A DNA stretch of 33,360 bases, taken from assembly GCA_020832805.1 (NCBI GenBank), contig JAFIED010000269.1, positions 1-33,360 on the forward strand. The letters are read 5' to 3'. Position 1 is the stretch's first letter. Every line of letters begins with the position of its first letter. A program made the position numbers and the translations under genes. Below, piece by piece: positions 16,679 to 31,832 of the stretch. The stretch comes from Pararhodobacter sp. (GTDB lineage: Bacteria; Pseudomonadota; Alphaproteobacteria; Rhodobacterales; Rhodobacteraceae). Below the pieces are notes generated by a model that worked only from the letters and a program-made list of their open reading frames with translations, was not told where the DNA came from and did not search any database.

Positions 16679-16713
16679 GGCAGATCCCGCAACGCAATGC
16701 GGCGGGATCTGCC
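16679..16713 (-). terminator. Hairpin terminator of the minus-strand ATPase gene
   Basis: Perfect 12-bp inverted repeat GGCAGATCCCGC/GCGGGATCTGCC with an 11-nt loop, about 50 nt downstream of the ATPase stop. On the minus strand it is followed by a weak T-containing stretch (TTGTCTG). The rest of the 230-nt gap (16531-16760) holds no gene I can support. Confidence 0.65.
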
Positions 16714-16760: not shown

Positions 16761-18962
16761 TTACGCGCTGGCCAGCTTGCCCAAAAGGGTGCGCCACAGA
16801 GCCTTGGTCTCGTCAGCCAGCCGTGCCGGACCTGCGTCCAGCATCTTGCGGCGCATGCGCTCTGCCAGCTGGAACCGCCAGTCTTCGGGCAGGATGATGC
16901 CTTCGGCATGGGCCCATGCCAGCGCCTGGGCAACAAAGGGCCGTCCGGCGACAAAACTATCGGCAAACAGACGCTCTGGCCTGCGTTCCACCCGGTCCAT
17001 CTGAACCGCCAGTTCGTCGGCGGGGAACAGATCTTCCACGGTGCTGTCCTGACGCCTGGTGATGCCCTGCAGAAGGATGACATCGTTGCTGTCAGACAGT
17101 CTGCCCGCCAGCGCGCGCCCCTGCTCTGAGCCATCAAGCACCAGTTTGGGCGACCGGGTCTGGGTTTCGCTCAGCAGGCGCGCCATGACCTGCATGACCT
17201 CGGCACCACAGGCAGGGGCAAAGATCATGTCGCGCTGCGGCATGAACTGGCCAGAGGCAATGCTCAGGGTCTTGATGACGCTCAGGTAGGTCTGCTCGAC
17301 CCGGCCCTGCACCAGCACGGGCTGTGCCCCGCCCATGCTGACCTCGGCCACCGCCAGATTGAGGGCGGCGCGCACGGCAAAGCCGGCACCACGCTGGCTG
17401 TCGCTGCCCTCGGCCTCCAGCAGATCACCGCTGACCCGGGTCGAGCCATCACGACCGACAAACACCTTGCGCGCCCGCGCCAGACGGTCGGCATCGACCA
17501 GAAAGGGCGAATGCGTGGTGTAAAGTATCTGGTTCTTCAGTGCCAAACCCTCGAAAAACGCTGACAGGTCACGCTGTGCCAGCGGATGCAGCGAATGCCC
17601 CGGCTCATCCAGCAGGAGGATGCAGTTGTCATGCGCCCCCTCGGCCTCGTGCAGAAAGACCAGAAAGAAGCTGAGAAACCATTGCAGCCCGGTCGAGCGG
17701 TGCTCAAGCTCGACCTCCTGCGGGCGGCGCGCATCGGCCACCCAGATACGAAAATGGGTGCCGTCGGCCTCGAACCGGAAGCGGTAGTCGCCCTGTTTCC
17801 ACCAATCGGCAAATCTTGCGGTCAGTTTGGTGCCCGCCGATTGCAGCAGGATAGAGCGCGTGCGCTTGGATTCCGCGATCTGGGCCAGGAGCGCGGAATC
17901 GGGCTGCTGGTCACGGCCGTTGGCGCGCCGCCACAGGCTGCGCACCAACCCGGCCTTGCCCTCTTCGGCGATCATCTGCGCCTCGGCCTCGTCGCGGATG
18001 TCCCGGAAATCACGGCCCAGTTCCAGTATTTCCTGCGCCTGCACGCCGACAAAATCGAACAGCACGCTTAGCGTGCGGGCTTTCGCGCTTTCCTTTGCGC
18101 CAAGATCCGCGCGGCCCATGTTGTCCACGACATGCGGCAGGTAGATCTCCGAGTCCAGGTTCCCGTAGTTCGAATAATACACGAACCGGGGCAGACGTTC
18201 GATCACCGCCTGGCGTATCTCCTCTCTCGCGGCCGGGTCTGGGGCAATCATCGCGGCCATGTGCTGACCCAGCGCTTTCTGCAACGCCCGCAGCAAGGGG
18301 ATGACATGGCTGGTGGCAGGCGGCTCTTCCGGGATCAGCGCCGCCACGCAATTGCGGGCCAGACGCAGGTCATTGCCGGTCACGTTCTCTGTGCGTGTCA
18401 GTTCGTCCAGCAGCACGTCAACCTGCTTGGCGGCTGCATCGCACAGCGGGTCGGTGGTGATGGCGCCCAGGTCCTTTTGCGCATCGCGCAATGCTGTCAG
18501 CGCGGCAGCGACCGCGCCATCCTCATCCAGCCTGTAGTCAGGAAAGTTGATCCGATAAGTGCCGTCATAGAGCCGCGCCACAGACACGCAGCGCGCCTGT
18601 GCCACGGGAATGCCGGCAAGCTGGGCAAGGCGCGCGGCCTCCTGGCCGGTGTCGAATTCCGCCGTGATGAACTGAAACTGGTCTGGCGCGTTGCGGATGG
18701 TGGTGAACAGGGCCTTGGGATAATCCGATGTGGGCTGCAGCATGCCTTCGCCCGCGGGGTTCAGTTTCCACAAGGGCAGCAGCAGATTGGTCTTACCGGA
18801 TTCGTTGACGCCAATCAGGGCCGTCACCGTGTCGGCGTGCAGCCAGCCGGAATCCATGACCGACCGGAAGTTGCTGACGCGATAGCGCAACAGCCTGAAA
18901 CCGGCCTGTGCAGGCGCCGGGGTGATGCGGGACGAAATCTTGAACTCGGTTTCCTGAAGCAT
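16761..18962 (-). CDS. OLD-like ABC ATPase with degenerate TOPRIM domain
   Basis: 733 aa from ATG 18960-18962, supported by GGAGA eight bases upstream; the track start 12 codons earlier lacks this. The N-terminal ATPase is of ABC/SMC type: Walker A GVNESGKT (51-58), a signature-like STGLQ (about 423), Walker B CILLLDEP (Asp452/Glu453), D-loop SLHP and H-loop TTHSPF. A long insertion (about 150-400) separates the Walker motifs. The C-terminal part follows a TOPRIM layout (PVLVQGRVEQ, APACGAEVMQVMARLL, KLVLDGSEQG, VEDLFP). The metal-binding residues are altered: the EG motif reads QG (Gln552) and DxD reads DGS (Asp610, Ser612). OLD proteins act in phage defence or DNA repair. This copy may bind DNA or signal rather than cut. 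It starts 35 nt after the antiporter operon on the same strand. Confidence 0.82.
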   Translation of the reverse strand: MLQETEFKISSRITPAPAQAGFRLLRYRVSNFRSVMDSGWLHADTVTALIGVNESGKTNLLLPLWKLNPAGEGMLQPTSDYPKALFTTIRNAPDQFQFITAEFDTGQEAARLAQLAGIPVAQARCVSVARLYDGTYRINFPDYRLDEDGAVAAALTALRDAQKDLGAITTDPLCDAAAKQVDVLLDELTRTENVTGNDLRLARNCVAALIPEEPPATSHVIPLLRALQKALGQHMAAMIAPDPAAREEIRQAVIERLPRFVYYSNYGNLDSEIYLPHVVDNMGRADLGAKESAKARTLSVLFDFVGVQAQEILELGRDFRDIRDEAEAQMIAEEGKAGLVRSLWRRANGRDQQPDSALLAQIAESKRTRSILLQSAGTKLTARFADWWKQGDYRFRFEADGTHFRIWVADARRPQEVELEHRSTGLQWFLSFFLVFLHEAEGAHDNCILLLDEPGHSLHPLAQRDLSAFFEGLALKNQILYTTHSPFLVDADRLARARKVFVGRDGSTRVSGDLLEAEGSDSQRGAGFAVRAALNLAVAEVSMGGAQPVLVQGRVEQTYLSVIKTLSIASGQFMPQRDMIFAPACGAEVMQVMARLLSETQTRSPKLVLDGSEQGRALAGRLSDSNDVILLQGITRRQDSTVEDLFPADELAVQMDRVERRPERLFADSFVAGRPFVAQALAWAHAEGIILPEDWRFQLAERMRRKMLDAGPARLADETKALWRTLLGKLASA

Positions 18963-18997: not shown

Positions 18998-20761
18998 TCA
19001 GGGTTCAAAGTAAGGGGGCAGCATGTGCCCGGGTGGGTGCGCGGCACCGGGTTGCGCCGCAGGGGGCATGGCCGCTTCGCCACGCAGGCTGCCGCCTGCC
19101 TCCAGCAGCAAGGTCAGCGCGATCAGGCCGGCAATTGCCGTCTGGCCAAGCCGCCAGCGCATGGCGGTTTCGCCTATGGCCTTTGGCATGGCATGAGCCA
19201 GCCTGCGGGCTGCGCGGCGCTTTGCGGCCAGTATGCTGTCTGCCCGCAGGGCCAAGGCACGGCCCGGCGCTGTGATCTGCGCCAGGAAAACCGCCGGGCC
19301 AATGCGCTGCGCATGCGCGTGGATGGCGACGCCAGCAGCCATGGCGACACCCAGTGCGACAGGCCAAAGTGCACCTGGCGCTGCCTGGCTGATCGGCGCA
19401 GCCAGCGTACCGGCAACGGCGACCCAGACCAGGGGCAAGGCCAGCGACGCGCCGACCAGCGCCAGAAAGGGCAGCAGAACCGCCTCTTGCGTGACCTTTG
19501 CAGGGGCCCCGGGCGGGTGAAGCCAGATCATCGCGACATAACGCGCCATCAGCAGGGTTGTCGCCACGCCGGACAGGCTCAGCGCGACGGTCAACCACGG
19601 CAGCCAGACGGGCGAGCCGGCGTTGAAGGCGGTCTTCAGCGCCTCCTTGCCCAACGCCCCCGAACTGGCGGGCAGACCGGCCAGGACGAATGCGGGCAAC
19701 AGCAGCGCCAGCGTGACGGCCAGTTTTGCCGCAGGGCCGGTCTGCGCCGCAAAGGCACCGGTGCCCAGAAACAGCGCGCCCTTGGCCAGCGCATGATGCG
19801 CAGCCAGAAAGACAAGCACGGGCAGAATGGCCACCCATGCCTGGGGCACCATCAGCCCCGCGCCCAGCCCCAGCGCCAGGATGCCCATCTGGCTGACGCT
19901 GGAATAGCCCAGCACCGCCTTTGGACTGGTCTGCTGCACACCCAGCAGCAGCGCGGCAAAGATCGTCACCATGCCGGCCGCCATCATGACCGTGCCATGG
20001 TCGGCATAGGTGACACCGCCCAGCGGCAAAAGCGTGATCATGCCAAACAGCCCCGCCTTGATCATGGCACCGGAAAGGACGGCGCTGGCCGGCACTGGCG
20101 CGGCCCCATGGGCAGGCGGCAGCCAGAAATGCAGCGGCATGATGCCCAGCTTGACGCACAGGCCGATCATCATCAGTGCAACCGCCGGGTCCGACAGCGC
20201 GGTCGCGCGCAGATCGGCCACATGAAACGACCCCGCCTGTGCCACGGCCAGTGCCAGCCCGGCAAACAGCGCCAGTTCGCCCAGTACGACAAAGCCGATA
20301 TACAGCCGCGCAGCGCCCTGTGCCTGTGGGGTACGGCTGTGCAGTACCAACCCGTAAGAGGCAAAGCTCATCGGCGCGAAAAAGGCATAGAAGCTTGCGG
20401 CATCCAGCGCCAGCAGCAGCCCCAGATTGCCTGTCTGCGCCATCAGGAACATGACGCCGAAGCTGGTGGCGCGCGCGTCATGGCGCATCCAGTGGCGCGC
20501 ACTGGCCCCGGCGGCGCACCACAGCAGGCCGGTGAAGATCACGAACAGGCGCGAGATTTCATCAAGTCCGAACTGAAGGCCAAGGATCATCCAATCAGCC
20601 TGCGCGTGCATCGGCAAATCGCCCAACAGCGCCAGTGCCAGCGCAGGCAGGGGCGCAAAGGGCATCATCCGCCAGACAAGGCTGCGTGCCTGTGGCCAGA
20701 TCAGCGCCAGGGCCAGCAAAAGCGGCAGCGCCAGGGCGGTCACAAAGGGGGCAAGGCTCAT
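18998..20761 (-). CDS. Third proton-conducting Mrp/NuoL-like antiporter subunit
   Basis: 587-aa polytopic protein of the proton-conducting transporter (NuoL/M/N, MrpA/D) family, with about 14 membrane helices. Conserved parts include the TM7 region VKLGIMPLHFWLPPAHGAAP with its Lys, and GAMIKAG and SSVSQMG. The TM5 position that holds the key Glu in the two sister subunits (FYE, MIE) reads FFA here (Ala129), so this copy may not translocate protons in the usual way. The C-terminal 120 residues are a basic region (ILAAKRRAARRLAHAM) followed by one hydrophobic segment and a Pro-rich end, unlike MrpD. It is the last antiporter gene, 3 nt after the A-type subunit. It may be a structural or regulatory partner. 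Confidence 0.85.
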   Translation of the reverse strand: MSLAPFVTALALPLLLALALIWPQARSLVWRMMPFAPLPALALALLGDLPMHAQADWMILGLQFGLDEISRLFVIFTGLLWCAAGASARHWMRHDARATSFGVMFLMAQTGNLGLLLALDAASFYAFFAPMSFASYGLVLHSRTPQAQGAARLYIGFVVLGELALFAGLALAVAQAGSFHVADLRATALSDPAVALMMIGLCVKLGIMPLHFWLPPAHGAAPVPASAVLSGAMIKAGLFGMITLLPLGGVTYADHGTVMMAAGMVTIFAALLLGVQQTSPKAVLGYSSVSQMGILALGLGAGLMVPQAWVAILPVLVFLAAHHALAKGALFLGTGAFAAQTGPAAKLAVTLALLLPAFVLAGLPASSGALGKEALKTAFNAGSPVWLPWLTVALSLSGVATTLLMARYVAMIWLHPPGAPAKVTQEAVLLPFLALVGASLALPLVWVAVAGTLAAPISQAAPGALWPVALGVAMAAGVAIHAHAQRIGPAVFLAQITAPGRALALRADSILAAKRRAARRLAHAMPKAIGETAMRWRLGQTAIAGLIALTLLLEAGGSLRGEAAMPPAAQPGAAHPPGHMLPPYFEP

Positions 20762-20764
20762 GGC

Positions 20765-22255
20765 TTACTCCTGATACTCGATGGCGACAATGAATCGCGT
20801 CCATTCCAGCGGGCTGAAGGGCGCATTGGCAAAGCCCCCTGCAATCAGAACCAGCGCGGCGGTGGCGGCGGGGGGCACGGCCAGCATCCAGCCAATGCGC
20901 GGCCGGCCCGGCGCGCCGGTCGTTTCGGGTGCGGCATCACGAAACCAGGCCCTGTGCAGCATGGGCATGAAATAGATCGCATTCAGCAGGCTGGAGCCCA
21001 GCAACAGCTCGATCACCCAGGCCTGCCCTGCCTCCAGCCCACCCTGGGCCAGATACCACTTGCTGACGAACCCGGCCAAGGGCGGCAAACCGATCATGCC
21101 CAGCGCGGCAAGCGTGAAGGCCAGCATCGAGCCGGGCATGGCGCGACCCACCCCGTCCATCTGGCTGACGCGCTTGACGCCCAGCCCCTCGGCCAGGTTG
21201 CCGGCGACCATGAACATGGTGATCTTCATCAGGCCCTGATGGATCAGATGCGCCAGCGCGCCCACGGCGGCCAAGGGGCTGGCCAGCGCCACGCCCAGCG
21301 TGATGTAACTGACCTGCGAAACCGTCGAATAGGCCAGCCGCTTCTTGATGTCATCCTGCGTGATTGCCTTGAGTGAACCATAGATGATGGTGACACCCGC
21401 CAGCACCGCCAGCGGTGCGGTCACGCCCAGCGCCTGGGCCGTTTCTATGCCGAAGACCTCGTAGACCACGCGCATGATGCCAAAGGCGCCGGCCTTGACC
21501 ACGGCCACCGCGTGCAGCAGGGCAGACACCGGGGCAGGGGCGACCATGGCGATCGGCAGCCAGACGTGAAACGGAAACAGCGCCGCCTTGACCCCCAGCG
21601 CGCCGATCAGCACCACGAACAGCAGTTGTGCCGCCAGCGGGTTCACTGCCACCACATAGGCCAGCACCCCACCGGGAACGAAATCGGTGGTTCCTGCCAG
21701 CACCCACAGGCCCAGCGTCCCCAGCAGCAGCACCAGACCGCCCGCAAGGGTATAGATCAGGTAGATGCGCCCGGCGCGCAACGCCTCTGCCGTGCCCCGG
21801 TGAATGACCAGCGGATAGGTGGCCAGTGTCAGCAATTCGTAGAACAGCAGGAAGGTGAACAGGTTGCCGGACAGGGCAATCCCCACGGTCGCTGCCACGC
21901 ACAGGCTGAAAAAGCCGAAGAACCGCGCGCGATGGGGTCCATGTTCCAGATAGCCCACCGAGTAGATGGTGGTGATCAGCCACAGCACGGCAGAAAGCGC
22001 AATGAACAGGATCGCCAGCGGATCGGCCTGCAACTTGAATTCCAGTCCCGGCAGCAGTTCAAAGCGCAGATCGTAGATCACGCCCTGGCTGACTTTCAGA
22101 CTGAGCCATGCAACCAGGGCCACTTTCAGCCCGGCCATGCCCAGGTTGATGCCGGTGCGCAGCCGTGCGGCACGTTCTGGCAGAGAAAACAGAACGGGCG
22201 CGGCCAGAAGCGAGGTCAGCAGGATGAAAAGGGGCAGCAGGGGCGCATCCATCAT
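20765..22255 (-). CDS. MrpA-core/NuoL-like antiporter subunit
   Basis: 496 aa, about 14 membrane helices. The TM5 Glu is present (LFYELLTLATYPLV, Glu140, the same number as the essential MrpA/MrpD glutamate). The TM7-8 section LGVKAALFPFHVWLPIAMVAPAPVSALLHAVAVVKAG has the HAVAVVKAG form typical of MrpA/NuoL. Functionally it is a half of the proton/sodium path. Compared with a normal MrpA (about 750-800 aa) it lacks the MbhD-MbhE C-terminal extension, which is encoded separately in this operon and fused to MrpB. It overlaps the preceding D-type gene by 4 nt (ATGA), showing translational coupling. An MrpD or NuoN-like naming would be possible, but the HAxxxVKAG motif favours the A-type. Confidence 0.85.
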   Translation of the reverse strand: MMDAPLLPLFILLTSLLAAPVLFSLPERAARLRTGINLGMAGLKVALVAWLSLKVSQGVIYDLRFELLPGLEFKLQADPLAILFIALSAVLWLITTIYSVGYLEHGPHRARFFGFFSLCVAATVGIALSGNLFTFLLFYELLTLATYPLVIHRGTAEALRAGRIYLIYTLAGGLVLLLGTLGLWVLAGTTDFVPGGVLAYVVAVNPLAAQLLFVVLIGALGVKAALFPFHVWLPIAMVAPAPVSALLHAVAVVKAGAFGIMRVVYEVFGIETAQALGVTAPLAVLAGVTIIYGSLKAITQDDIKKRLAYSTVSQVSYITLGVALASPLAAVGALAHLIHQGLMKITMFMVAGNLAEGLGVKRVSQMDGVGRAMPGSMLAFTLAALGMIGLPPLAGFVSKWYLAQGGLEAGQAWVIELLLGSSLLNAIYFMPMLHRAWFRDAAPETTGAPGRPRIGWMLAVPPAATAALVLIAGGFANAPFSPLEWTRFIVAIEYQE

Positions 22256-23709
22256 GGCGCAACTCCAAAGGGATAACCGATTTCAATGAAACCCAGGATC
22301 GGGGCCGCCAGCAGGCCAAGGCCGATCGCGGCAAGGGCCAGCGTCAGGGGGGCCGCATCGGCCAGCGCCCAGCCCTGATGCTCGCCCACCGGCGCGCGCA
22401 CCCGGTCAAAGCGCAGGAAGCCTGCGAACACGCGGCTGAAATAGGCCACCGACATCAGCGTCCCGGCCATGGTGACGGCAACCCAATGCCAGTAGCCCGC
22501 CGCCATTGCCCCCTCCATCAACGACCATTTGCCGATGAAACCCAGCGAGGGCGGCAGGCCGATCAGGCTGATGGCGGCCAGCGCAAAGGTGAACTGCGCC
22601 AGCGTGGGGCGGATCGGCGAACGGTCCAGATCGCGGATCACGTCATGGCCGATCTCGTCCTTGATGCGCCCGGCGGCCAGAAACATGGCAGCCTTGGCGA
22701 TGCCATGGGCCAGGATCAGCAATGCCGCGGCCTTCCAGCTTTCGGGCAGGCCGACCTCGCCCGCGCGGGCAAAGGCCACAAAGATCAGCCCGATCTGCGC
22801 CACCGTGGACCACGCAACCAGCAATTTCAGCCGTTCGGCGCGCAGCGCCTGGATGCCGCCCCAGATCACCGCGCCGGCCCCCATCAGCCCCACCAGTGTC
22901 AGCAGGGTTTCCGATGGAAACGGCATGTATTGCGCCAGGCGCAGCACGATATACAGCGCGGCCTTGACCACCAGCCCCGACAGCAGCGCACTGGCAGGCG
23001 CGGTTGCATTGGCATGCGCCGCAGGCAGCCAGAAATGCAGGGGAAACAGCGCGGTTTTCAGCGCCAGCCCCACGAACATCAATGCCAGCGCTGCAATCAG
23101 GGCGCCGGTTGGCTCTGCCCCGGTCAGGCCTGCGAAATCCAGACGGCCCAGTTGCAGATAGATGAAGCCGACACCCATCAGGAACAGGAGCGCCCCAAGG
23201 ATCGAGGCATACATGTACTCAAGCCCGGCCTGCACGGCTGCACGGCTGCCACTCAGAACGGTCAGGCCAACCGCGGCCAGGGCGATCACCTCGATCATCA
23301 CATAGAGATTGAAGATATCGGTGCCGAGATAGACGCCGTTCATGCCTGTCAGCAAAAGCAGCCAAAGCGGCCAGAAGTATTGCCGCTGGCGCGCCTGTTG
23401 GGCCCCCTTGAGGCTGTCAAGCGCCGCGACGCTGACCAGAAACCCGACAGCGCAAGTCAGGCCAAGCATGGCCACGCTCAGCCCGTCGGCGCGCAGATCA
23501 ATGCCAAGGGGGGCGCCCCAGCCGCCAAGGGGCAGAACCACTGCACCCCCGGTCAACACCGCGCGCGCCAGCCAGATGACCGCACCCGTGGTCAGCGCCA
23601 GCGTGGCAAGGCCGATCACGGATGCCGCACGCGGCAAGAGAAAGGCCATGATCGCCCCGAAAAGTGGCACAAAGATCGCAAGGGTGATGGGAGAAAGGTC
23701 AACGCTCAT
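22252..23709 (-). CDS. mnhD: Na+/H+ antiporter subunit D (MnhD/MrpD)
   Basis: 485 aa, about 14 helices, proton-conducting transporter family. It has the TM5 Glu (FNLYVMIEVIALAAVGL, Glu140), the TM7 Lys and partner string LKTALFPLHFWLPAAHANATAPASALLSGLVVKAALYI, and the sequence LIGLPPSLGFIGKW typical of MrpD. MrpD provides one of the two ion-translocating modules of the Mrp complex in the inner membrane. The order C-D, an 11-nt overlap with mnhC and a 4-nt overlap with the next gene place it squarely in the canonical part of the operon. Confidence 0.9.
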   Translation of the reverse strand: MSVDLSPITLAIFVPLFGAIMAFLLPRAASVIGLATLALTTGAVIWLARAVLTGGAVVLPLGGWGAPLGIDLRADGLSVAMLGLTCAVGFLVSVAALDSLKGAQQARQRQYFWPLWLLLLTGMNGVYLGTDIFNLYVMIEVIALAAVGLTVLSGSRAAVQAGLEYMYASILGALLFLMGVGFIYLQLGRLDFAGLTGAEPTGALIAALALMFVGLALKTALFPLHFWLPAAHANATAPASALLSGLVVKAALYIVLRLAQYMPFPSETLLTLVGLMGAGAVIWGGIQALRAERLKLLVAWSTVAQIGLIFVAFARAGEVGLPESWKAAALLILAHGIAKAAMFLAAGRIKDEIGHDVIRDLDRSPIRPTLAQFTFALAAISLIGLPPSLGFIGKWSLMEGAMAAGYWHWVAVTMAGTLMSVAYFSRVFAGFLRFDRVRAPVGEHQGWALADAAPLTLALAAIGLGLLAAPILGFIEIGYPFGVAP

Positions 23710-23989
23710 CTTCGGCTTCCAGGGTTTGCAGGCGGCGGATCAGGGCAAGGGCCACGGCGGTGGCGCTGACCATGACGACAATGCCGGTGATCACCAGCGC
23801 ATGGGGAACGGGGTCGGGTACACCGGGTGGCGCGCGCCATGCCCCCACCACCAGCAGGAACCCTGCACCGACCGAACACAGTTTCAGCGCCAGCACGCGG
23901 CGCAGCCGGTCCAGGGCACACAGCGCGCCGACCAGCCCGATGCCGAAAACGGCGATCCCGGTCAGGCCATAGATCAGGTCAGGTGTCAT
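23699..23989 (-). CDS. mnhC: Na+/H+ antiporter subunit C (MnhC/MrpC, NuoK-like)
   Basis: 96 aa with three membrane helices (YGLTGIAVFGIGLVGAL, LALKLCSVGAGFLLVVG, HALVITGIVVMVSATAVALAL). Length and helix pattern are those of the NuoK/MrpC family; HALVITGIVVMVSATAVAL is the family's best-conserved part. It forms part of the membrane coupling region between the antiporter modules. It overlaps the B-fusion gene by 11 nt and mnhD by 11 nt. Confidence 0.9.
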   Translation of the reverse strand: MTPDLIYGLTGIAVFGIGLVGALCALDRLRRVLALKLCSVGAGFLLVVGAWRAPPGVPDPVPHALVITGIVVMVSATAVALALIRRLQTLEAEDER

Positions 23990-24956
23990 GGCGCCCTCCG
24001 GTGGTCAGCGCGACCGGCTCGCGCCCGTGAAACAGCGCGGCAAGCGTTACAGCGATGGAGATTGTCACCATCCCCTCGATCAGCAGGATCAGGGTCTTGG
24101 CGTGTTCCAGCGGGTATTCGAAGGCCACGCGCCCCCCGCCCGCAACCAGCAGGGCAACCAGTGCAAAGACTCCCGTGCCCAGCACAAAGGCCCAGCGTGC
24201 GATACCCCGATGGCCGGGCTGGGGCACATAGGCGCGGGTCAACAGCAACAGCAGTCCCATGGCCGCCAGCACCGCGCCACCCTGAAAGGCGCCGCCCGGC
24301 GCCTCGGCCCCGCCCCACAGCAGATAGGTGCCGACCACAACGATGGCGGGCAGGGCGAGGCGCGCGAAACCCTGCCAGACCACGCCCATCACTGGCGCAG
24401 GCGCCTCTGACAGGCCGCGCTCGATCTGCCAGACCGCAACCACGGCGGCCAGCAGCACAACAACCTCCATCAGGGTGTCATACGCGCGGAAGTTCAGCAG
24501 AACGCCCGTGACGGGATGCGCCACGCCACTTGTGGGCATGGCCTCGGCCACCAGCATGTCAAAGCCTGGCCCGGCTGCGGGCGCCCCAAGAAAGCCCGCG
24601 GCCAGCCCCAGCGTGATCAGCCCGCAGAATGCGGCATTGGCCAGGGTCACGCCCAGGGGAACGGGAGGCAGAGGCGCCACGCCCGTCATCGGCTGCCGGT
24701 TCCGGCTGCCAGAGACAAAACGCAGGTGGTGCAGCGTCTTGAGCAGCAGCGCGCCTGTCACGCCGGTGCCGATAGCCGCTTCGGCCAAGGCGACATCGGG
24801 TGCCGAAAGCCGCACCCAGGCCAGGGCCGACAACAGACCGAAGATGATGAAAAGAACAATCATCGTGAACTGGTCACGCACACTCAGCGATGCCGTTGCC
24901 AGCGCCACGATCGACAAGGCCAGCAAGATGTCGAAGATCATCAGCGGATCAGCCAT
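23979..24956 (-). CDS. MbhD (DUF4040)-MbhE-MnhB fusion antiporter subunit
   Basis: 325 aa from ATG 24954-24956 (MADPLMIFD); the track start is 25 codons early and would run into mnhG. Three modules are visible. Residues about 1-85 are MbhD/DUF4040 (FIIFGLLSALAWVRLSAPDVALAEAAIGTGV). Residues about 120-195 are MbhE (HPVTGVLLNFRAYDTLMEVVVLLAAV). Residues about 205-315 are MnhB (RLALPAIVVVGTYLLWGGAEAPGGAFQGG). In standard Mrp operons the first two are the C-terminal part of MrpA. Here they are detached from the A core and joined to B. The protein overlaps mnhG by 8 nt. Membrane protein, no signal peptide; structural coupling role in the complex. Confidence 0.87.
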   Translation of the reverse strand: MADPLMIFDILLALSIVALATASLSVRDQFTMIVLFIIFGLLSALAWVRLSAPDVALAEAAIGTGVTGALLLKTLHHLRFVSGSRNRQPMTGVAPLPPVPLGVTLANAAFCGLITLGLAAGFLGAPAAGPGFDMLVAEAMPTSGVAHPVTGVLLNFRAYDTLMEVVVLLAAVVAVWQIERGLSEAPAPVMGVVWQGFARLALPAIVVVGTYLLWGGAEAPGGAFQGGAVLAAMGLLLLLTRAYVPQPGHRGIARWAFVLGTGVFALVALLVAGGGRVAFEYPLEHAKTLILLIEGMVTISIAVTLAALFHGREPVALTTGGRHDT

Positions 24957-25242
24957 GCTGCACCTCCGTCCCGGTCTGGCGGGCGTGGCGGGCAACCAGA
25001 TGGCTGCAGGTTGCGCTGGCAACGGCAACAAAGAACCAGATCAGCGCAATGCGGAACACCGCGCCCGCCGACCCCGCCAGCAGCGCCGTACCCAGCGCGA
25101 TCAGCGCCAGGCCCAACCCGTCGGCCTTGGTCAGCGCATGCAGGCGGCAATAGATGTCAGGAAAGCGCAACAGACCGACCGTGCCCGCGATGAAGAACAC
25201 AGTGCCCGCGGTCATCAGGACCGCTGCAATCACCTCCGCCAT
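24949..25242 (-). CDS. mnhG: Na+/H+ antiporter subunit G (MnhG/MrpG)
   Basis: 97 aa with three membrane helices. The family signature is clear: AGTVGLLRFPDIYCRLHALTKADGLG (compare G-x-R-x-PD-x-Y-R-HA-x-K in MrpG). It overlaps mnhF by 1 nt and the B-fusion by 8 nt. Small subunit of the Mrp complex, required for assembly. Confidence 0.93.
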   Translation of the reverse strand: MAEVIAAVLMTAGTVFFIAGTVGLLRFPDIYCRLHALTKADGLGLALIALGTALLAGSAGAVFRIALIWFFVAVASATCSHLVARHARQTGTEVQHG

Positions 25243-25502
25243 CAGCGCACCCCCCGGGACGACAGCACGACAAAGGCCACCAGCGTGACGGCCGCCAGCA
25301 GCGCAAAGACCATGGCGACATCAAGCAGGGCGGGCATGTCCATCAGCTGCGACAACACGAACAGGATGGCCACGGCCGCGGTGCCGAAAAGCTGCGCGGC
25401 CAGCATGCGTTCGGCCGGCGCAGGGCCACGAAAGACGCGAACAAGTCCGGCAAGGATCGACAGCAGCAGCGCAATCAGGATAAGGGACAGAAAGCTCGTC
25501 AT
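25242..25502 (-). CDS. mnhF: Na+/H+ antiporter subunit F (MnhF/MrpF)
   Basis: 86 aa with three membrane helices. RVFRGPAPAERMLAAQLFGTAAVAILFVLS matches MrpF (R-GP-x2-DR-x-LA...), and ALLAAVTLVAFVVLSSRG closes the family pattern. MrpF and MrpG assemble beside MrpE in the membrane arm. It overlaps mnhE by 4 nt and mnhG by 1 nt, showing tight translational coupling. Confidence 0.92.
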   Translation of the reverse strand: MTSFLSLILIALLLSILAGLVRVFRGPAPAERMLAAQLFGTAAVAILFVLSQLMDMPALLDVAMVFALLAAVTLVAFVVLSSRGVR

Positions 25503-26131
25503 GACAGATGTTCCGGATTTGGGGAGAGGGCGAACAGCAACCGGATACGGTATTCGAGATCAGCAAGCCCCGGCGCCGGATCGATGCGCGCGTCAAGCAT
25601 GTGAACGATGACCGTGTCGTCGACGACTTCGGCCGACAGGGTTCCGGGCAGCAGGGTGATCGTGTTGATGAAGGTGATCTGCGGCGCCCCCGCTGGCAGG
25701 GCAAGTGGATAGGCGCAGAATGCGGGGCGCAGACCCATATCGGGCGACAGGGCGCGCAGCGTGACATCCACCGCACCCCGCACCGACTGCACCGTGAACC
25801 AGACGCCAAAGATCAGCATCCCGCGCAACGACAGGCGCCAGCCGGGCGACGCGGGCAACATCCAGGGCAGGGCGGCCGCCAGAAAGACAGCCGGCGCACC
25901 AAAGATGACCGCCTCCAGCTGCCAGCCGGTCAACGCTCCCCACATGACAGACAGGATCAGAACCGATATCCCGCCCCGCCGCAGGCTGTGCAGGCGGCGG
26001 GGCAGGGCAGGCGGACGAACGGCCGGGGGCGTTTGCGCCGCATCGGCCGCGGGCCCATCCGGCCGGTCAGAAGGAATGACCGATGGCACCCGCGCAGACG
26101 CGTTCAGGCGCAAGGGAGAGGTTGCGCGCAT
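25499..26131 (-). CDS. mnhE: Na+/H+ antiporter subunit E (MnhE/MrpE)
   Basis: 210 aa, first gene of the minus-strand antiporter operon. The core (about residues 50-205) has two or three hydrophobic segments followed by the MrpE signature FINTITLLPGTLSAEVVDDTVIVHMLD. About 50 N-terminal residues, rich in Pro, Arg and Ala, are unusual for MrpE. No other ATG exists between residue 1 and MWGAL, so either the extension is real or a GTG/TTG start further in is used. Shared promoter region with the plus-strand gene at 26435. Confidence 0.88.
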   Translation of the reverse strand: MRATSPLRLNASARVPSVIPSDRPDGPAADAAQTPPAVRPPALPRRLHSLRRGGISVLILSVMWGALTGWQLEAVIFGAPAVFLAAALPWMLPASPGWRLSLRGMLIFGVWFTVQSVRGAVDVTLRALSPDMGLRPAFCAYPLALPAGAPQITFINTITLLPGTLSAEVVDDTVIVHMLDARIDPAPGLADLEYRIRLLFALSPNPEHLS

Positions 26132-26434
26132 CGTGTTTTTCCGGGCAGCCTGTTGTTGATCATGCCTGTGACATGGGCGGCGGAGGGGCTGCCTGTCCGG
26201 TCCGTCGGGAAATCCATGCCAAGGGTGCGCAAGGTCTTTTTGCGCTGTTGGTTGAAGAACGCCTCAACCCGGGTTTTCATCCGCCGGGCCGAAAAAAACC
26301 AAAGCGTTTTGTCGGGCTTTTCTGCGCGGGCGGATTCATGCGGCGGAAATCGGAAAAACCGCTCACCTTGGGGTGAGCCCGGGATGAAACCCCGTGCGCG
26401 GGCGTTTGTGCGGTATCAACAGCAGGAGGATACC
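26132..26434. other. 303-nt divergent intergenic region with several inverted repeats
   Basis: It contains no credible gene; the 97-aa ORF crossing it has no family features. Three structures stand out on the plus strand: GGTTGA/TCAACC (26250-26269); an imperfect long-range pair GGGTTTTCATCCGCCGGG (26271-26288) with CCCGGGATGAAACCC (26378-26392); and, inside that, CTCACC-TTGG-GGTGAG (26362-26377). Together they could fold the leader of the gene at 26435 into one branched structure. Promoters for mnhE and that gene must also lie here. No known riboswitch was recognised. Confidence 0.5.
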
Positions 26435-26761
26435 ATGTCCATGACCTCGACCAATCAGCCACAGCTTGCCCGCCCCAGCTTGCGCAAGGATGGGCTGATC
26501 AGCCTTTGGGGGCGTCTGCGGTATCGCAAGCCCGGCGCCTATGACGCCTGGCTGCATGAACGTGACCTGATCATCATAACGGCAACCCTGAAGCGCCTGA
26601 CCGAGCGGCAGTTGAATCGCCTGGGCATGTCGCACAAGACCCTGGCGCTTGATGTCGACGATCTGGCGTTGCGCGCCCGCCGCGATGCCGAGATCGCCAG
26701 GGAAGTTCTGGCGCTCGTCGAAGACGACGCCGATGAACGACATGCCATCGCAGCCGAGTAG
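26435..26761 (+). CDS. Small basic protein, weakly DUF1127-like
   Basis: 108 aa from ATG 26435, directly behind a near-perfect AGGAGGA. The track's long ORF upstream is antisense to mnhE. I do not recognise a firm family. The central part LISLWGRLRYRKPGAYDAWLHERD followed by LKRLTERQLNRLGMSHK resembles the LxxLsdrqLxdlGl pattern of DUF1127 proteins, small RNA-binding or stress proteins of alphaproteobacteria. Here the protein is longer, with an acidic C-terminal helix (EVLALVEDDADERHAIAAE). No signal peptide or membrane segment is present. The strong ribosome-binding site, structured leader and clean terminator indicate a well-expressed monocistronic gene. Function unknown. Confidence 0.8.
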   Translation: MSMTSTNQPQLARPSLRKDGLISLWGRLRYRKPGAYDAWLHERDLIIITATLKRLTERQLNRLGMSHKTLALDVDDLALRARRDAEIAREVLALVEDDADERHAIAAE

Positions 26762-26920: not shown

Positions 26921-26963
26921 ATGCGCGTTGAAGGGCTGAATGCCGGGTTGCCTAAGGTGGCGG

Positions 26964-27962
26964 TCAGCGTGTTGCCCGGATAACGCGCGAGATCTCGTCA
27001 AGCTGCAGGATCGCCCGCTTCAGGTAGAACCCCTGCAGATGCAGATGATTGGCCAGAAAACTGTTGGCCCCCGAGCTGTTGAGCACGACAAGCGGCTGGT
27101 GCTGCGACGCTTCGCGCAGGCTTTCAAGGGCCTGGTGCCAGACCCTGGTCAGGCCTTGCCCGGCAATGACATTTTCGAAATCGCGCCCCAGTTCGCGCAG
27201 CAACAGGTAAGAGGCATAGGCCATGCCCTTGTTGAAATAGAAGATATCATCCGCGACCATATCCAGGATAAAGCGGTCGGCGCTGACGTGATCATCGACG
27301 ATGGCGGCGCGGGACCCCAGTTCGCTGGCCATGCGATCGACCGTCAGGGCCAGAGCATCGGCACGCGTTTCAAAGATCGCACCGCCCATTGCAACGCGCG
27401 TGTTGTAGGCCCGCAAGGCCCGCGCGGCAGCCTCGAACTGTGTTTCTGCGGGCTGGACGGGCAGCAAGGACTGGTCCAGATCGAAAATCCAAACATCAGT
27501 GGGGAATTGCAGCAGCCCGCTGGCCCTTTCCAGATCGGAATCGATGGCGGACGACCCGCGCAGTCGTCCGATCTGGTTTTCCAGTTCCAGCGTGAATCGG
27601 CTGATCGCGCGCATCATGCCGCGCTGGAAATTCGGCATGTTGTCGTGAAACGCCGTCGGAAAGAAGAACGGGTCGTTGGCGGTCCAGCGGTGCGTGACCA
27701 CTTCGCGCGTGATCAGCGCCTCGGCCATGTTGACGGCGTGACTGCCCCCCTCGATCGGGGAGGGGGGCGCGAATTCGAGGTTTGCATCAATACGGTGCAT
27801 CAGGTTGCCGATGACCCCGAAATAGAGCACGAAAGCCGCGGCAAGCATCCAGATGCTGCGCTTTACAATGACGCGTGGTCTTGTCCCGAAGACGAGCCCC
27901 GGAAGCGAGAATTCGGGCCGTTTGGCCGGAACTTGTGGCCGGATGATCAGATCATTGCCCAT
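26964..27962 (-). CDS. DUF2333 family membrane-anchored protein
   Basis: 332 aa from ATG 27960-27962, with an ideal AGGAGGG ribosome-binding site. One membrane helix (SIWMLAAAFVLYFGVIGNLM, about 36-55) follows a short basic cytoplasmic tail, so most of the protein should be periplasmic. The segments PSPIEGGSHAVNMAEALITREVVTHRWTANDPFFFPTAFHDNMPNFQ and NSFLANHLHLQGFYLKRAILQLDEI are characteristic of DUF2333, a proteobacterial family with no known function. It is divergent from an ECF sigma gene with a 178-nt shared region, so control by that sigma is plausible but not shown. Confidence 0.88.
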   Translation of the reverse strand: MGNDLIIRPQVPAKRPEFSLPGLVFGTRPRVIVKRSIWMLAAAFVLYFGVIGNLMHRIDANLEFAPPSPIEGGSHAVNMAEALITREVVTHRWTANDPFFFPTAFHDNMPNFQRGMMRAISRFTLELENQIGRLRGSSAIDSDLERASGLLQFPTDVWIFDLDQSLLPVQPAETQFEAAARALRAYNTRVAMGGAIFETRADALALTVDRMASELGSRAAIVDDHVSADRFILDMVADDIFYFNKGMAYASYLLLRELGRDFENVIAGQGLTRVWHQALESLREASQHQPLVVLNSSGANSFLANHLHLQGFYLKRAILQLDEISRVIRATR

Positions 27963-28022
27963 GAAACCCTCCTGTAACGCGGCAGTCGGGGCGATGGCGC
28001 CCGCTTGTTCACCCCCACAAAC

Positions 28023-28055: not shown

Positions 28056-28140
28056 AGGGTTTCCGCGCGCACCGCAAATTTTTTTGGATGAAACCGGCCT
28101 GTCGTGCGTATGTCCTGAAACCGTGATCGGAGGCGTGGCT

Positions 28141-28653
28141 GTGAGTCTGAAAACCGAAGTGACATCGCACACCAAAAGCCTGCGCCGCTATGCGCTGGTT
28201 CTGACCCGTGATCCCGCCGCCGCGGATGATCTGGTGCAAGAGACCTTGCTGAAGGCGATCGACAAGGCCGACACCTGGCAACCGGGCACAAATCTGCGCC
28301 CGTGGTTGTTCCGCATCATGCACAACACCCATGTCAGCGACCTGCGCCGCGCGAAAACCCGCACGGATGCCGCGCCGGATCTGCCCGAACCGGTTGTGCA
28401 GGATCACCAGCATACCCAGCTTGAGCTGAAGCAGGTGCTGCAGGCGCTGGACCAGCTGCCAGAGGCACAGCGCAAGCCCATCATCCTGATCGCCCTGCGC
28501 GAGATGTCTTACGCAGAGGCCGCCCGCACGCTTGATGTGCCGCTGGGTACATTCATGTCGCGGCTGGGGCGCGGGCGTGAAGCCCTGCGCCGGATCGTTT
28601 CCGGCATCGCCTCGGGAAAGCTGGCGGTTCTGAGCAGAAAGGAAAGCCTCTGA
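28141..28653 (+). CDS. ECF-type RNA polymerase sigma factor
   Basis: 170 aa from GTG 28141 (VSLKTEVTSH), with GGAGG seven bases upstream. The track's TTG start at 28084 adds 19 unlikely residues including the promoter region. Region 2 is clear (AAADDLVQETLLKAIDKADTW...LRPWLFRIMHNTHVSDLRR), and region 4 has the helix-turn-helix REMSYAEAARTLDVPLGTFMSRLGRGREALRR. There is no extracytoplasmic or extra domain. It directs RNA polymerase to a stress regulon and is held by the anti-sigma protein encoded next, with which it overlaps at ATGA. The motif VGTNL/PGTNLRPWLF also resembles the general stress sigma EcfG, but NepR and PhyR are absent here, so a classical sigma/anti-sigma pair is more likely. 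Confidence 0.9.
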   Translation: MSLKTEVTSHTKSLRRYALVLTRDPAAADDLVQETLLKAIDKADTWQPGTNLRPWLFRIMHNTHVSDLRRAKTRTDAAPDLPEPVVQDHQHTQLELKQVLQALDQLPEAQRKPIILIALREMSYAEAARTLDVPLGTFMSRLGRGREALRRIVSGIASGKLAVLSRKESL

Positions 28654-29456
28654 TGACCCAAGACACCCCCTCCGAACACGGCCTTGGGCTGGATGATGAC
28701 CTGATGGCCTATGTTGACGGCACCTTGTCGCCCGAAAGGATGGCGCAGGTCGAGGCCCGCCTTGCCCGTGATCCAGAGGCGCGCGCGGCAACGGCAAGCT
28801 GGCGCCACCACAACAACCTGATCCGGCAGATGGCACAGACCGCAGATGATCTGCCCACCGACATGCGCATTGCCGCGCTGGAACGCGAACTCGCCGCCAA
28901 GCTGCAGGCCCGCAAGCGCCGCGCCTTTCTGATGGGTCCTGCGCTTGGCCGGATCGCTGCAAGCGTATTGCTGTTTACCGCAGGGTGGGGCGCGCATGGG
29001 CTGTTCAGCGCGTCCACGACAATGACAGGCGCGGCGTATCCGCAGTTTGTTTCTGCCACGATGGCGGGACATTATGCGATGCGGCAGATTTCGATGCAGC
29101 AGGCCGAGTTCCAGGCCGACGAGATCGATACCGCGCTGGATTGGATATCGGCCCAGATGCAACGCAAGATCGACAGTCCGGAACTGCGTCGTCTGGGCTA
29201 TGAGGTCGAAAGCGCAAGGCTGCTGTCGACCGATGACGGCCCGCTCGCCATCTTCTATTTCCGCAACGAAGAGGGGAACAGCGTAACCGTTTCTGTCACG
29301 CCTCATGCACCCGATCAGCCGGATTACGCTTATCGCGTGGTTCGGCTGGAAACGGAAAGCATGGCCTACTGGACAGAGTCCGGACTGGATTATTCCGTGA
29401 TTGGCGATGTTGATGTCGGCCAGATCACAACGCTTGCAGCGGCCGTGCGAAATTGA
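28653..29456 (+). CDS. Transmembrane anti-sigma factor
   Basis: 267 aa. The N-terminal anti-sigma helices include DDLMAYVDGTLSPERMAQVEARLARDPEARA (about 14-45), the usual opening of membrane anti-sigma factors. A single membrane helix (ALGRIAASVLLFTAGWGAHGLF, about 95-115) is followed by a periplasmic domain of about 150 residues. The protein has no cysteine at all, so it cannot use the zinc (HxxxCxxC) redox switch; signalling through the periplasmic domain or proteolysis is more likely. The start overlaps the sigma stop by ATGA, with AAAGGAAAG upstream. It binds the sigma at 28141-28653. Confidence 0.85.
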   Translation: MTQDTPSEHGLGLDDDLMAYVDGTLSPERMAQVEARLARDPEARAATASWRHHNNLIRQMAQTADDLPTDMRIAALERELAAKLQARKRRAFLMGPALGRIAASVLLFTAGWGAHGLFSASTTMTGAAYPQFVSATMAGHYAMRQISMQQAEFQADEIDTALDWISAQMQRKIDSPELRRLGYEVESARLLSTDDGPLAIFYFRNEEGNSVTVSVTPHAPDQPDYAYRVVRLETESMAYWTESGLDYSVIGDVDVGQITTLAAAVRN

Positions 29457-29846: not shown

Positions 29847-30839
29847 TCACAGGCTGAAGATGACGTCGGCCAGCGCGATCCACAGCGGGATCGACAACAG
29901 CGCGACGGGGGTGCCGATGCTGGTGGACGCGCCGATATAGGCCGCCGGATTGGCCGAGGGGATGGCCGCGCGCAGCGTCGGCGGGCCAGAGATGTCGGAA
30001 CTGGACGCGGCCATCACCGCCAGCAACACCACCCCGCCAGGTGAAAAGCCGGTCGCCAGATGCGCCAGATACCCCAGGCCGAAGCCCAGCGCCCCATGCA
30101 CCAGCGGCGCGGTCAGGCCATAGATGGCATAGACATGCGCCACGCGGCGCAATTCGGCCAGCCGGGCCCAGGCCTCCATCCCCATGATCAGCATCAGGAT
30201 CGACAGGAAGCCCCGGAACAGCGGGTCGTAGAAGCTGGCGAACACCGGGTCTGGCCGCGCGATCACGCCCAATACCAGCCCCAACCCCAGCGCCGACAGG
30301 GCCGAGCCGCGCAGGCTGTCAACGATGATCGCGCTGATCCGGGGCCGTACTTTGCCGCTTTTGCGGGCCAACTGGGCCAGCACGATGGCGGTGATCAGCG
30401 CGGGGATGTCCATGAACGGGTAAAGCGCGGGCACCCAGGCCTCGAAGCGCAGCCCGTCCTCTTCCATCAGCACCATCGCGGCGGCCAGCGTCGAGGCCGA
30501 GACGGCGCCAAACAGACCTGCCGTGGCGATCCCGTCCTCGGGGCGCGGGCCGGCGCGCGGCGCCAGCGTCAGCCGGCCGATCAGCACGATGACCACGCCC
30601 AGCACGCTGGCCGCCAGCGCCGGCAGCATGAGTTCGGACAGATCGGCCTCGCGGATGGCGATTCCGGCGCCAAGCCCGATCCGCAGCATCAGCACCACCA
30701 CGATGAATCGGTAGATGGCATCGGGGATGTCCAGCCGGCTGCCCAGCGCGGCAATGGCCATGCCCCCCAGCAGGAAGGCCAGCGTGGGCGATTGCAGCTG
30801 CCGCCCGAAGGCGGCCAGGAAGTCAAGGAACAGGTCCAT
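29847..30839 (-). CDS. sbtA: Sodium-dependent bicarbonate transporter family protein (SbtA)
   Basis: 330 aa from ATG 30837-30839 (MDLFLDFLAAFG), with CGGAGA upstream; the longer ORF reads antisense through the LysR gene. About ten membrane helices form an inverted repeat. Family features include FLLGGMAIAALGSRLDIPDAIYRF, GLFGAVSASTLAAAM with its Ser-rich ion-site loop, and the second-repeat LLAVMAASSSDISGPPTLRAAIPSANPAAYIGASTSIGTPVA. The last resembles the S-S-D-Y...PEANPS region that binds bicarbonate in cyanobacterial SbtA. It imports bicarbonate or a related small anion with sodium. No carboxysome or RuBisCO gene is in the window, so supply for anaplerotic carboxylation or pH control is equally possible. 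In an operon with the SbtB-like gene. Confidence 0.9.
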   Translation of the reverse strand: MDLFLDFLAAFGRQLQSPTLAFLLGGMAIAALGSRLDIPDAIYRFIVVVLMLRIGLGAGIAIREADLSELMLPALAASVLGVVIVLIGRLTLAPRAGPRPEDGIATAGLFGAVSASTLAAAMVLMEEDGLRFEAWVPALYPFMDIPALITAIVLAQLARKSGKVRPRISAIIVDSLRGSALSALGLGLVLGVIARPDPVFASFYDPLFRGFLSILMLIMGMEAWARLAELRRVAHVYAIYGLTAPLVHGALGFGLGYLAHLATGFSPGGVVLLAVMAASSSDISGPPTLRAAIPSANPAAYIGASTSIGTPVALLSIPLWIALADVIFSL

Positions 30840-30894
30840 GCGGATCTCCGGATGTCGGGGGCGATGGCGCGTACAGACACCGGAAATAGATGAA

Positions 30895-30913
30895 ATAAAA
30901 TTACATATTTTAT
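30895..30913. promoter_or_regulatory. LysR-type operator candidate in the sbtA/LysR divergent region
   Basis: ATAAAAT-TACAT-ATTTTAT is a perfect 7-bp inverted repeat with a 5-nt spacer (19 bp overall) in an AT-rich island of otherwise GC-rich DNA. It fits the T-N11-A rule for LysR regulators and sits about 50 nt before the LysR start and 56 nt before the sbtA start, as expected for a divergently acting regulator. Confidence 0.65.
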
Positions 30914-30962
30914 GCTGGATCATGCTATCAGATAGAACAGTTGCGCAGCATGCGAAGGGTTC

Positions 30963-31832
30963 ATGGCCACACCCAACCTTCACCACCTGCGGCTGTTCCG
31001 CGCCGTGGCCCATGACGGCACGCTGACCGGGGCGGCGCGGCGGCTGAATCTGTCGCCTTCGGCGCTGTCGGCGCAGCTGCGTGCGCTGGAGGCGGCGCTG
31101 GGCCATGACCTGTTCGAGCGGCGCGGGCGCGGGCTGCTGATGACCGAGGCGGGGCGCATCGCGCTGGATCATGCCGACGCGATCTTTCGCACCGCCGAGG
31201 ATCTGACCGCGATCCTGCGCCAGCACGGTCCGGGGCGGCGGGCGCTGCGGGTGGGGGCGCTGGCCACGCTGTCACGCAATTTTCAGCTTGAATTCCTGCG
31301 CCCGGTCCTGGGGCGGGCGGATGTCGAGGTGGTGCTGCGTTCGGGCAGTCAGGCGGAATTGCTGCGCGGGTTGGAGGCATTGGCACAAGATGTGGTGCTG
31401 ACAAATCTGGCCCCGCCGCGCGATGCTGCCAGCCGCTATCTTGTGCATCGCATGGCCCAGCAGCCGGTCAGCCTGATCGGCACGCCCGCGCGGATCGGCA
31501 ATGCCATGCCGCTGTCGGCACGGTTGTCCGGGGCGCCCCTGATCCTGCCAGCCCCGGAAACGGCGCTGCGTGCGGGGTTTGATGCGCTTGTCTCGCGGTT
31601 GGGCATTGCCGTGTCGATCGTGGCAGAGGTGGATGACATGGCGATGATGCGGCTTCTGGTGCGGGAAGATGTCGGCCTGGCGGTCATTCCGCGGATTGTG
31701 GTGCAAGACGAGCTGGCGGCGGGTGTTCTGGCCGAGGCCGATGCCCTGCCGGACATGGAAGAGACATTTCTGGCCGTCACCCTGCAGCGCCGTTTTCCAA
31801 ACCCGGTGTTGGCCGACCTGTTGCGGGGCTGA
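30963..31832 (+). CDS. LysR-family transcriptional regulator (CmpR/CbbR-like or NhaR-like)
   Basis: 289 aa from ATG 30963, behind GAAGGG. The N-terminal winged helix reads HHLRLFRAVAHDGTLTGAARRLNLSPSALSAQLRALEAALGHDLFERRGRGLLMTEAG. The remainder is a two-lobe effector domain beginning LRVGALATLSRNFQLEFLRPVL, a form seen in NhaR-type LysR proteins. It is divergent from the sbtA-sbtB pair across 123 nt that contain a palindromic T-N11-A site, so it almost certainly controls that pair. The effector could be a carbon-limitation metabolite or sodium; the sequence does not tell. Confidence 0.92.
   Translation: MATPNLHHLRLFRAVAHDGTLTGAARRLNLSPSALSAQLRALEAALGHDLFERRGRGLLMTEAGRIALDHADAIFRTAEDLTAILRQHGPGRRALRVGALATLSRNFQLEFLRPVLGRADVEVVLRSGSQAELLRGLEALAQDVVLTNLAPPRDAASRYLVHRMAQQPVSLIGTPARIGNAMPLSARLSGAPLILPAPETALRAGFDALVSRLGIAVSIVAEVDDMAMMRLLVREDVGLAVIPRIVVQDELAAGVLAEADALPDMEETFLAVTLQRRFPNPVLADLLRG

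Follow-up and report, generated by a model that had tools for sequence, protein, structure and literature searches.

An OLD-family ATPase with altered Toprim residues behind a Na+/H+ antiporter operon in Rhodobacterales

OLD proteins have mostly been studied as nucleases and defence genes, and the role of the OLD ATPase is disputed. What might such a protein do when its ATPase is kept, its nuclease residues are replaced, and its gene lies behind an ion antiporter? We address this question for a gene of Pararhodobacter sp. that lies in a 33,360-nucleotide stretch of contig JAFIED010000269.1, referred to here, at its full length, as the window.

An intact ATPase and an altered Toprim site

The gene occupies 16761..18962 on the minus strand and encodes an OLD-family ABC ATPase of 733 aa with an apparently inactivated Toprim domain; residue numbers throughout are those of this protein. 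We prefer ATG18962 as the start because relatives begin there with MRHET or MRHES and because a Shine-Dalgarno sequence, AAAAGGAG, lies 5' of it at the same point, and an alternative in-frame ATG at 18998, which overlaps the preceding stop, was set aside. This is the only OLD gene copy in its genome (3.7 Mb in 300 contigs, about 90% complete). A strong GC-rich hairpin, noticed by eye at window 16679-16713 (-) about 48 nt past the OLD stop, may mark the end of the operon; a terminator scan made no call.

The ATPase is recognizably that of the OLD family, with Pfam matches to AAA_15/AAA_21 and a PADLOC match to Old at 3.6e-16. Walker A (GVNESGKT, residues 51-58, 18789..18812 (-)) is intact, and its K57 is present in 15/15 degraded and 31/31 intact rows of the alignment. 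Walker B (ILLLDEPG, residues 448-455, 17598..17621 (-)), judged from sequence and alignment, and the aligned H-loop His484 (17511..17513 (-)) are likewise intact, the Walker B core LLLDEPG lying at 449-455, in agreement with the sequence-only reading, which had listed all three motifs. The C-terminal Toprim domain is recognized by full-length homology to relatives that carry the EG, DxD and EDL motifs, and predicted strands end just before residues 552 and 610. The Pfam Toprim profile gives no match in this protein and only a weak match in the relative L057. The best PDB sequence match is 6P74. An AlphaFold model has low global confidence (pTM 0.63), as does that of the intact relative L042 (Monaibacterium marinum), and a PDB fold search with the model returned OLD, PtuA and SMC ATPases at low TM-scores, matches that confirm the ATPase fold and do not address active-site geometry.

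In TsOLD, metal A is held by E377, D431 and D433 and metal B by D381, S478 and E480, with an Arg or Lys assisting (PMC7049728). Alignment to TsOLD places the metal A set at residues 552, 610 and 612 of the OLD protein and the metal B set at 556, 641 and 643. Taken in the order 552, 556, 610, 612, 641, 643 and 696, seven Toprim sites read E D D D E E K in all 31 intact-site relatives and Q E D S T E R here, with five of the seven changed. At metal A, Gln552 (17307..17309 (-); TsOLD E377) replaces the Glu of the EG motif and Ser612 (17127..17129 (-); TsOLD D433) replaces the second Asp of DxD, while the first, Asp610 (17133..17135 (-)), is retained. At metal B, Glu556 (17295..17297 (-); TsOLD D381) replaces an Asp, and Thr641 (17040..17042 (-)), at the position of TsOLD S478 and P2 D541, replaces the Glu that begins the E-x-E of the EDL motif, in which Glu643 (17034..17036 (-); TsOLD E480) is kept. 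Finally, Arg696 (16875..16877 (-)) replaces the invariant Lys of a W-K pair, a candidate for the assisting base given its invariance and its distance from E643. The class 1 ligands are thus represented here by Q552, D610 and S612 for metal A and by E556, T641 and E643 for metal B. The residues given earlier for 552, 610 and 612 hold in the 733-aa reading frame; the minus-strand location and the changes E641 to T, D556 to E and K696 to R are additions.

These replacements belong to a clade. Our sample of the degraded clade, after removal of same-genome duplicates, has 20 members, 18 in a crown and two basal (genomes G361 and G652), from Paracoccaceae/Rhodobacteraceae; it is monophyletic, on one side of a branch with SH-aLRT support of 99-100. 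Throughout the crown (18/18), residue 552 has become Q, P, G, A or R, residue 612 has become S, T, G, A, L, P, V or K, and the Glu at 641 is lost, mostly to T. The E552 and D612 changes are not chance, since E and D stand at these sites in 31/31 intact relatives and both are lost in 18/18 crown members; conservation of the substitutions in close homologues was a check proposed with the original observation. The invariant E641 and K696 of the intact relatives (each 31/31) are likewise gone from every crown member, K696 always to R. D556E and a retained E643 are found in 18/18 and D610 in 17/18. Intact metal-binding acids contributed by other positions had been named as what would refute the original observation. 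Sought by sequence in the Toprim core, the only new acid present across the crown is E556, which itself replaces an existing acid; a second crown-enriched acid, D694, lies further along the chain.

The basal members suggest how the site was lost. At the seven sites the residues are E D D D A E Q in G652 and R D D D T E R in G361, partial losses in which both keep DxD. Because they keep DxD and show intermediate residue sets, the site was probably dismantled stepwise, with E641 and K696 going first, then E552, then D612 together with D556E. The residues at these positions make it highly likely that normal nuclease activity has been lost in the Pararhodobacter protein. Some residual nicking would be possible, since D610, E556 and E643 remain and TsOLD metal A mutants still nick plasmid DNA (PMC7049728).

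Selection on the two domains follows the same division. Many dS values were saturated, and we therefore used only pairs with finite dS. In L032/L033, the most closely related pair for which dS could be used, dN/dS is 0.019 for the C-terminal half of the ATPase vs 0.154 for Toprim, and the Natronohydrobacter pairs give about 0.02-0.04 and about 0.11-0.18, respectively. Toprim dN/dS in intact pairs is 0.031 (L059/L060) and 0.046 (L053/L056). The ratio of Toprim dN to dN in the ATPase C-half is about 4-12 in degraded pairs, whereas it is about 1-4 in intact pairs. Conserved columns number 26 in degraded vs 36 in intact Toprim domains and 120 vs 73 in the ATPase C-half. Although the degraded clade is the shallower of the two, its Toprim has fewer conserved columns than that of the deeper intact clade, which holds for no other domain. 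From the dN/dS of the domains and the column counts, Toprim is relaxed yet under purifying selection, the ATPase is not relaxed, and this is not simple decay. The suggestion that selection holds the ATPase and not nuclease chemistry is thus borne out by the clade-wide catalytic loss and by the domain-wise dN/dS. A decayed defence gene, which had also been proposed, fits poorly with dN/dS well below 1 and with the unbroken reading frames of 17/18 crown members, which share 53-82% identity.

Antiporter operon, island and shared promoter

The OLD gene is the last gene of a Mrp/MBH-type Na+/H+ antiporter operon, following eight genes on the same strand and beginning 36 nt after the D3 stop. The operon opens with an MnhE-like subunit (antE, 25499..26131 (-)), followed by an MrpF-like subunit (25242..25502 (-)), an MnhG-like subunit (24949..25242 (-)), a fused MbhD/MbhE/MnhB subunit (23979..25031 (-)), an MnhC-like subunit (23699..23989 (-)), antiporter subunits D1 (22252..23709 (-)) and D2 (20765..22255 (-)), and, directly upstream of OLD, D3 (18998..20761 (-)); all three D subunits are Proton_antipo_M proteins. 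Beyond antE lies an island comprising a small divergent gene (26435..26761 (+), its ATG placed by eye after AGGAGG; a longer homologue at L097 hits DUF1127 below cut-off), a gene for a DUF2333 protein (26964..27962 (-)), an ECF sigma factor gene (28084..28653 (+), likely start GTG28141 by eye) with matches to Sigma70_r2, r4_2 and TIGR02937 (75.1 bits against a cut-off of 42.9), and a gene for a putative anti-sigma factor (28653..29456 (+)) with weak zf-HC2 and anti-sigmaE matches. Opposite-strand open reading frames, such as 26940-27977 and most of 25508-26761, are mechanical, overlapping real minus-strand genes, and were discarded. The sequence-only reading had the gene standing alone, without a GajB-like helicase or reverse transcriptase; neither partner adjoins it, but the gene is part of an antiporter operon with an ECF sigma pair next to it.

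This arrangement recurs in the crown. OLD lies directly behind antiporter D3 in 10/18 members, with gaps of -28 to about +40 nt, and adjoins other island genes in 7/18; the sole exception, L033, is on a 6.4-kb contig. Island genes were found near OLD at none of the 37 loci with intact or basal OLD proteins. The genes downstream of OLD vary between genomes (RsgA, CobT, DUF1611 or DXP synthase, with RsgA in the window). An antiporter at E<=1e-60 is present in 13/13 searched G-labelled genomes with a clade member vs 12/397 in the family. Ten further genomes, reached via loci, have the antiporter in 5/6 cases with a crown member and in 0/4 with an intact OLD, the sixth crown-member genome carrying a partial antiporter gene at a contig edge. 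The structure of the operon is stronger evidence than this count of co-occurrence, which relatedness and habitat confound.

Several further genes occur around the island. An SbtA-type Na+/bicarbonate transporter and a LysR regulator adjoin it (window 29847-31226 and 30963-31832), and L038 and L122 have a LysR homologue next to OLD. A dynamin-family GTPase, absent from the window, is found beside OLD in the island of L037 (5435-7000), L070 (10948-12648) and L119 (8722-10116). At L122 (9405-11761, genome G524), a deletion has left the antiporter B subunit joined to an OLD remnant of 449 aa, and antiporter C, D1, D2 and D3 have gone together with the N-terminal, Walker A half of the ATPase. The conservation of DUF2333 within a sigma-linked stress island suggests a role for this uncharacterized family.

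Comparison of upstream regions revealed a shared motif, GGATGAAA-N12-GCGTW (the last letter T or A), before the sigma gene, antE, DUF2333 and the small divergent gene, and before OLD where OLD has left the antiporter operon. In the window, the copy before antE, GGATGAAAACCCGGGTTGAGGCGTT (26258..26282 (-)), would drive the antiporter-OLD operon; further ECF-type copies precede the small divergent gene (26382..26406 (+)) and the sigma gene (28086..28110 (+)), the last pointing to autoregulation. The motif lies 122 nt before OLD in L037 and 85-167 nt before it in L119 and L070, depending on the start chosen. At L033 a near copy of the L032 antE promoter (430-454) stands 621 nt ahead of OLD, and no antiporter intervenes; L038 has no motif copy before OLD. 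In the L033 genome (G666), antiporter D3 is on another contig (C360), which may reflect rearrangement or an assembly artefact.

As a candidate promoter the motif is highly specific. Within 800 nt upstream of OLD, and even allowing two mismatches, it was found at 0/24 intact or basal loci. A relaxed form (either A or G at position 7, and A, T or C as the final letter) gives 28 matches at the exact spacing in island loci vs one across thirteen other spacings, and one match at the exact spacing in 574 kb of control loci. Genome-wide pattern searches with the strict 25-mer returned three matches in the Pararhodobacter genome, all in the window and within 1.9 kb, six in G025, two each in G551 and G037, and one in G383, for a total of 14 in five genomes, all at island genes. 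G025 is the most telling case, since it carries the motif on two contigs, contig 2 with OLD, dynamin and DUF2333 and contig 24 with the sigma factor and antiporter. A scan for the usual sigma-70 consensus gave one chance-level site, and an EcfG-like pattern, GGAA-N16-20-CGWT, gave scattered, non-conserved matches; both were set aside.

The OLD operon shares its promoter motif with the sigma gene and its island partners, as would a member of an ECF-sigma regulon. From the placement of the motif, including before the sigma gene itself, we infer that the island sigma factor reads it, and on this basis OLD very probably belongs to the regulon. The sigma/anti-sigma pair and the candidate promoter motif in the window would make up a small, closed regulon with the Na+/H+ antiporter.

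Origin, function and rival explanations

Intact relatives are found on plasmids. One is on pAMI7 of Paracoccus aminophilus, which is conjugative, where it lies beside a Tn3 transposase, and another is on a conjugative Pseudosulfitobacter plasmid that also carries RadC and AbiE genes; such a setting would suit a gene that is mobile and probably defensive. Among the plasmid hits, which include intact relatives, there was no member of the degraded clade. A single phage match is distant (35% identity). The genus distribution is patchy (4/19), and the names of several members (CSBr16, CSSed16) point to Siberian soda-lake metagenomes (PMC6704655).

We lean towards the view that a formerly mobile OLD nuclease lost its catalytic function and was drawn into a sigma-controlled regulon for Na+/alkali stress, where it probably serves as a non-cleaving ATP switch. 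Its computed part consists of clade-wide site loss, purifying selection strongest on the ATPase, an operon and island that are conserved, and an ECF-type promoter that their genes share. In such a scenario, the Toprim site of an OLD ATPase would have been taken apart stepwise in one Rhodobacterales lineage, and the gene would have been captured as the last gene of a Mrp/MBH-type Na+/H+ antiporter operon beside the ECF sigma factor, its probable regulator. Under sodium, alkali or envelope stress the sigma factor would be released, and the antiporter and OLD would be transcribed together. OLD would bind and probably hydrolyse ATP, undergo a conformational change without cutting nucleic acid, and act as an ATP-driven switch (a conformational clamp, scaffold or regulator) that aids the stress response, with the former Toprim domain as a structural or docking domain. 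The suggestion of a regulator in the earlier reading is compatible with our findings; the DNA sensor that it also named is a further candidate role, and OLD may act on the antiporter, the membrane or DNA. We propose more tentatively that the clade is a non-defence branch of OLD proteins, a nuclease-dead ATPase in a sigma-controlled sodium/alkali (envelope) stress response that acts with the multisubunit Na+/H+ antiporter; direct action of OLD on the antiporter or membrane is somewhat more doubtful still. Several observations count against the favored reading, namely that G361 and G652 are unlinked to the island, that L038 lacks the promoter, that L033 has no antiporter between promoter and OLD, that L122 lacks the N-terminal half of the ATPase, and that the genus distribution is patchy.

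Three other explanations deserve consideration. The protein might still be anti-phage through its ATPase domain alone, with a dispensable Toprim and a stress sigma factor merely controlling it. The E. coli protein YbjD/OldB has just such a dispensable Toprim and an ATPase domain that is essential for its anti-phage phenotype (PMC13261556), relatives of our protein score to defence models, and a dynamin-like GTPase shares the island of L037, L070 and L119. Yet the island holds no other defence gene (PADLOC returned nothing for DUF2333, anti-sigma, antiporter or dynamin), the plasmid hits include intact relatives and not the clade, and members from different genera retain their link to the antiporter operon, all of which make continued defence unlikely. 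The gene could instead be a pseudogene-to-be that hitchhikes in a selected operon, as the relaxation of Toprim and the deletion that cost L122 both its Walker A and four antiporter genes would allow. We regard this as very improbable, given how few crown frames are broken at such divergence, the low dN/dS of both domains in the Natronohydrobacter pairs, and a promoter that was kept or gained where OLD moved.

It may also be that Toprim is altered rather than dead, acting as a one-metal or weak nickase through D610, E556, E643 and R696. These residues are the ones fixed in the crown (all but D610 without exception), TsOLD with either the metal A or the metal B site mutated retains nicking (PMC7049728), and TsOLD itself uses an Arg at the Lys position. 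On the other hand, both metal sites are hit in every crown member through the loss of E552, D612 and E641, the replacements at these three positions are varied, constraint on Toprim is relaxed, and TsOLD mutated at A and B together no longer nicks (PMC7049728). A surviving nickase thus seems improbable, if less so than the pseudogene.

If the more tentative reading of a non-defence branch is true, the clade shows how a nuclease that was mobile and probably defensive can become an ion-homeostasis factor. The fixed place of the gene at the end of the antiporter operon, beside a stress sigma factor, suggests that bacteria of alkaline lakes and related forms have turned a defence-type protein to use against salt and alkali stress. 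The clade is also a natural separation-of-function experiment, in which the ATPase is kept and the nuclease removed, whose intermediates show the order of loss and whose regulon points to when the OLD protein is used. It makes testable both a role of its own for the OLD ATPase and the recruitment of defence-type genes to ion homeostasis in haloalkaliphiles.

Comparison with known systems

Class 1 OLD nucleases, such as P2 Old and Thermus scotoductus OLD, have a similar N-terminal ABC ATPase with an inserted helical domain and a C-terminal Toprim fold. Our protein is about 200 residues longer, differs at five of seven catalytic positions, and is encoded in an operon, as the end of an antiporter operon, rather than by a class 1 single gene without a partner. 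Class 2 (GajA of Gabija) has an adjacent UvrD-like GajB helicase, whereas the neighbours here are antiporter D3 and RsgA, and no reverse transcriptase of the kind that marks class 3 (retron) occurs among the neighbouring genes scanned. The protein is therefore an OLD protein by fold and descent that lacks two class 1 features, the ligand set and isolation, and those of classes 2 and 3.

The eight upstream genes resemble those of Mrp/MBH-type multisubunit Na+/H+ antiporters, consisting of E, F, G, B/D and C subunits and three D-like subunits, and we know of no Mrp operon that carries an OLD ATPase. A literature search for OLD with a Mrp antiporter or an inactive Toprim found no paper on an OLD-antiporter pairing. 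The promoter motif is comparable to ECF26-type promoters of Sinorhizobium meliloti, which have a -35 GGAATA and a -10 GT (PMC6180224); the resemblance is one of layout.

Two further OLD-family proteins bear comparison. YbjD/OldB is alike in being an OLD protein whose phenotype needs the ATPase and not Toprim, but it keeps its Toprim acids and stands alone next to aqpZ, whereas here the acids are lost clade-wide from a protein encoded in a sigma-linked operon. Saccharolobus islandicus Cran1, also of the OLD family, has a proposed housekeeping role (PMC12796447), but this archaeal protein is an active nickase and its role lies in the cell cycle. Neither represents what the Rhodobacterales proteins appear to be, an entire clade whose catalytic site is dead and whose genes belong to a stress regulon.
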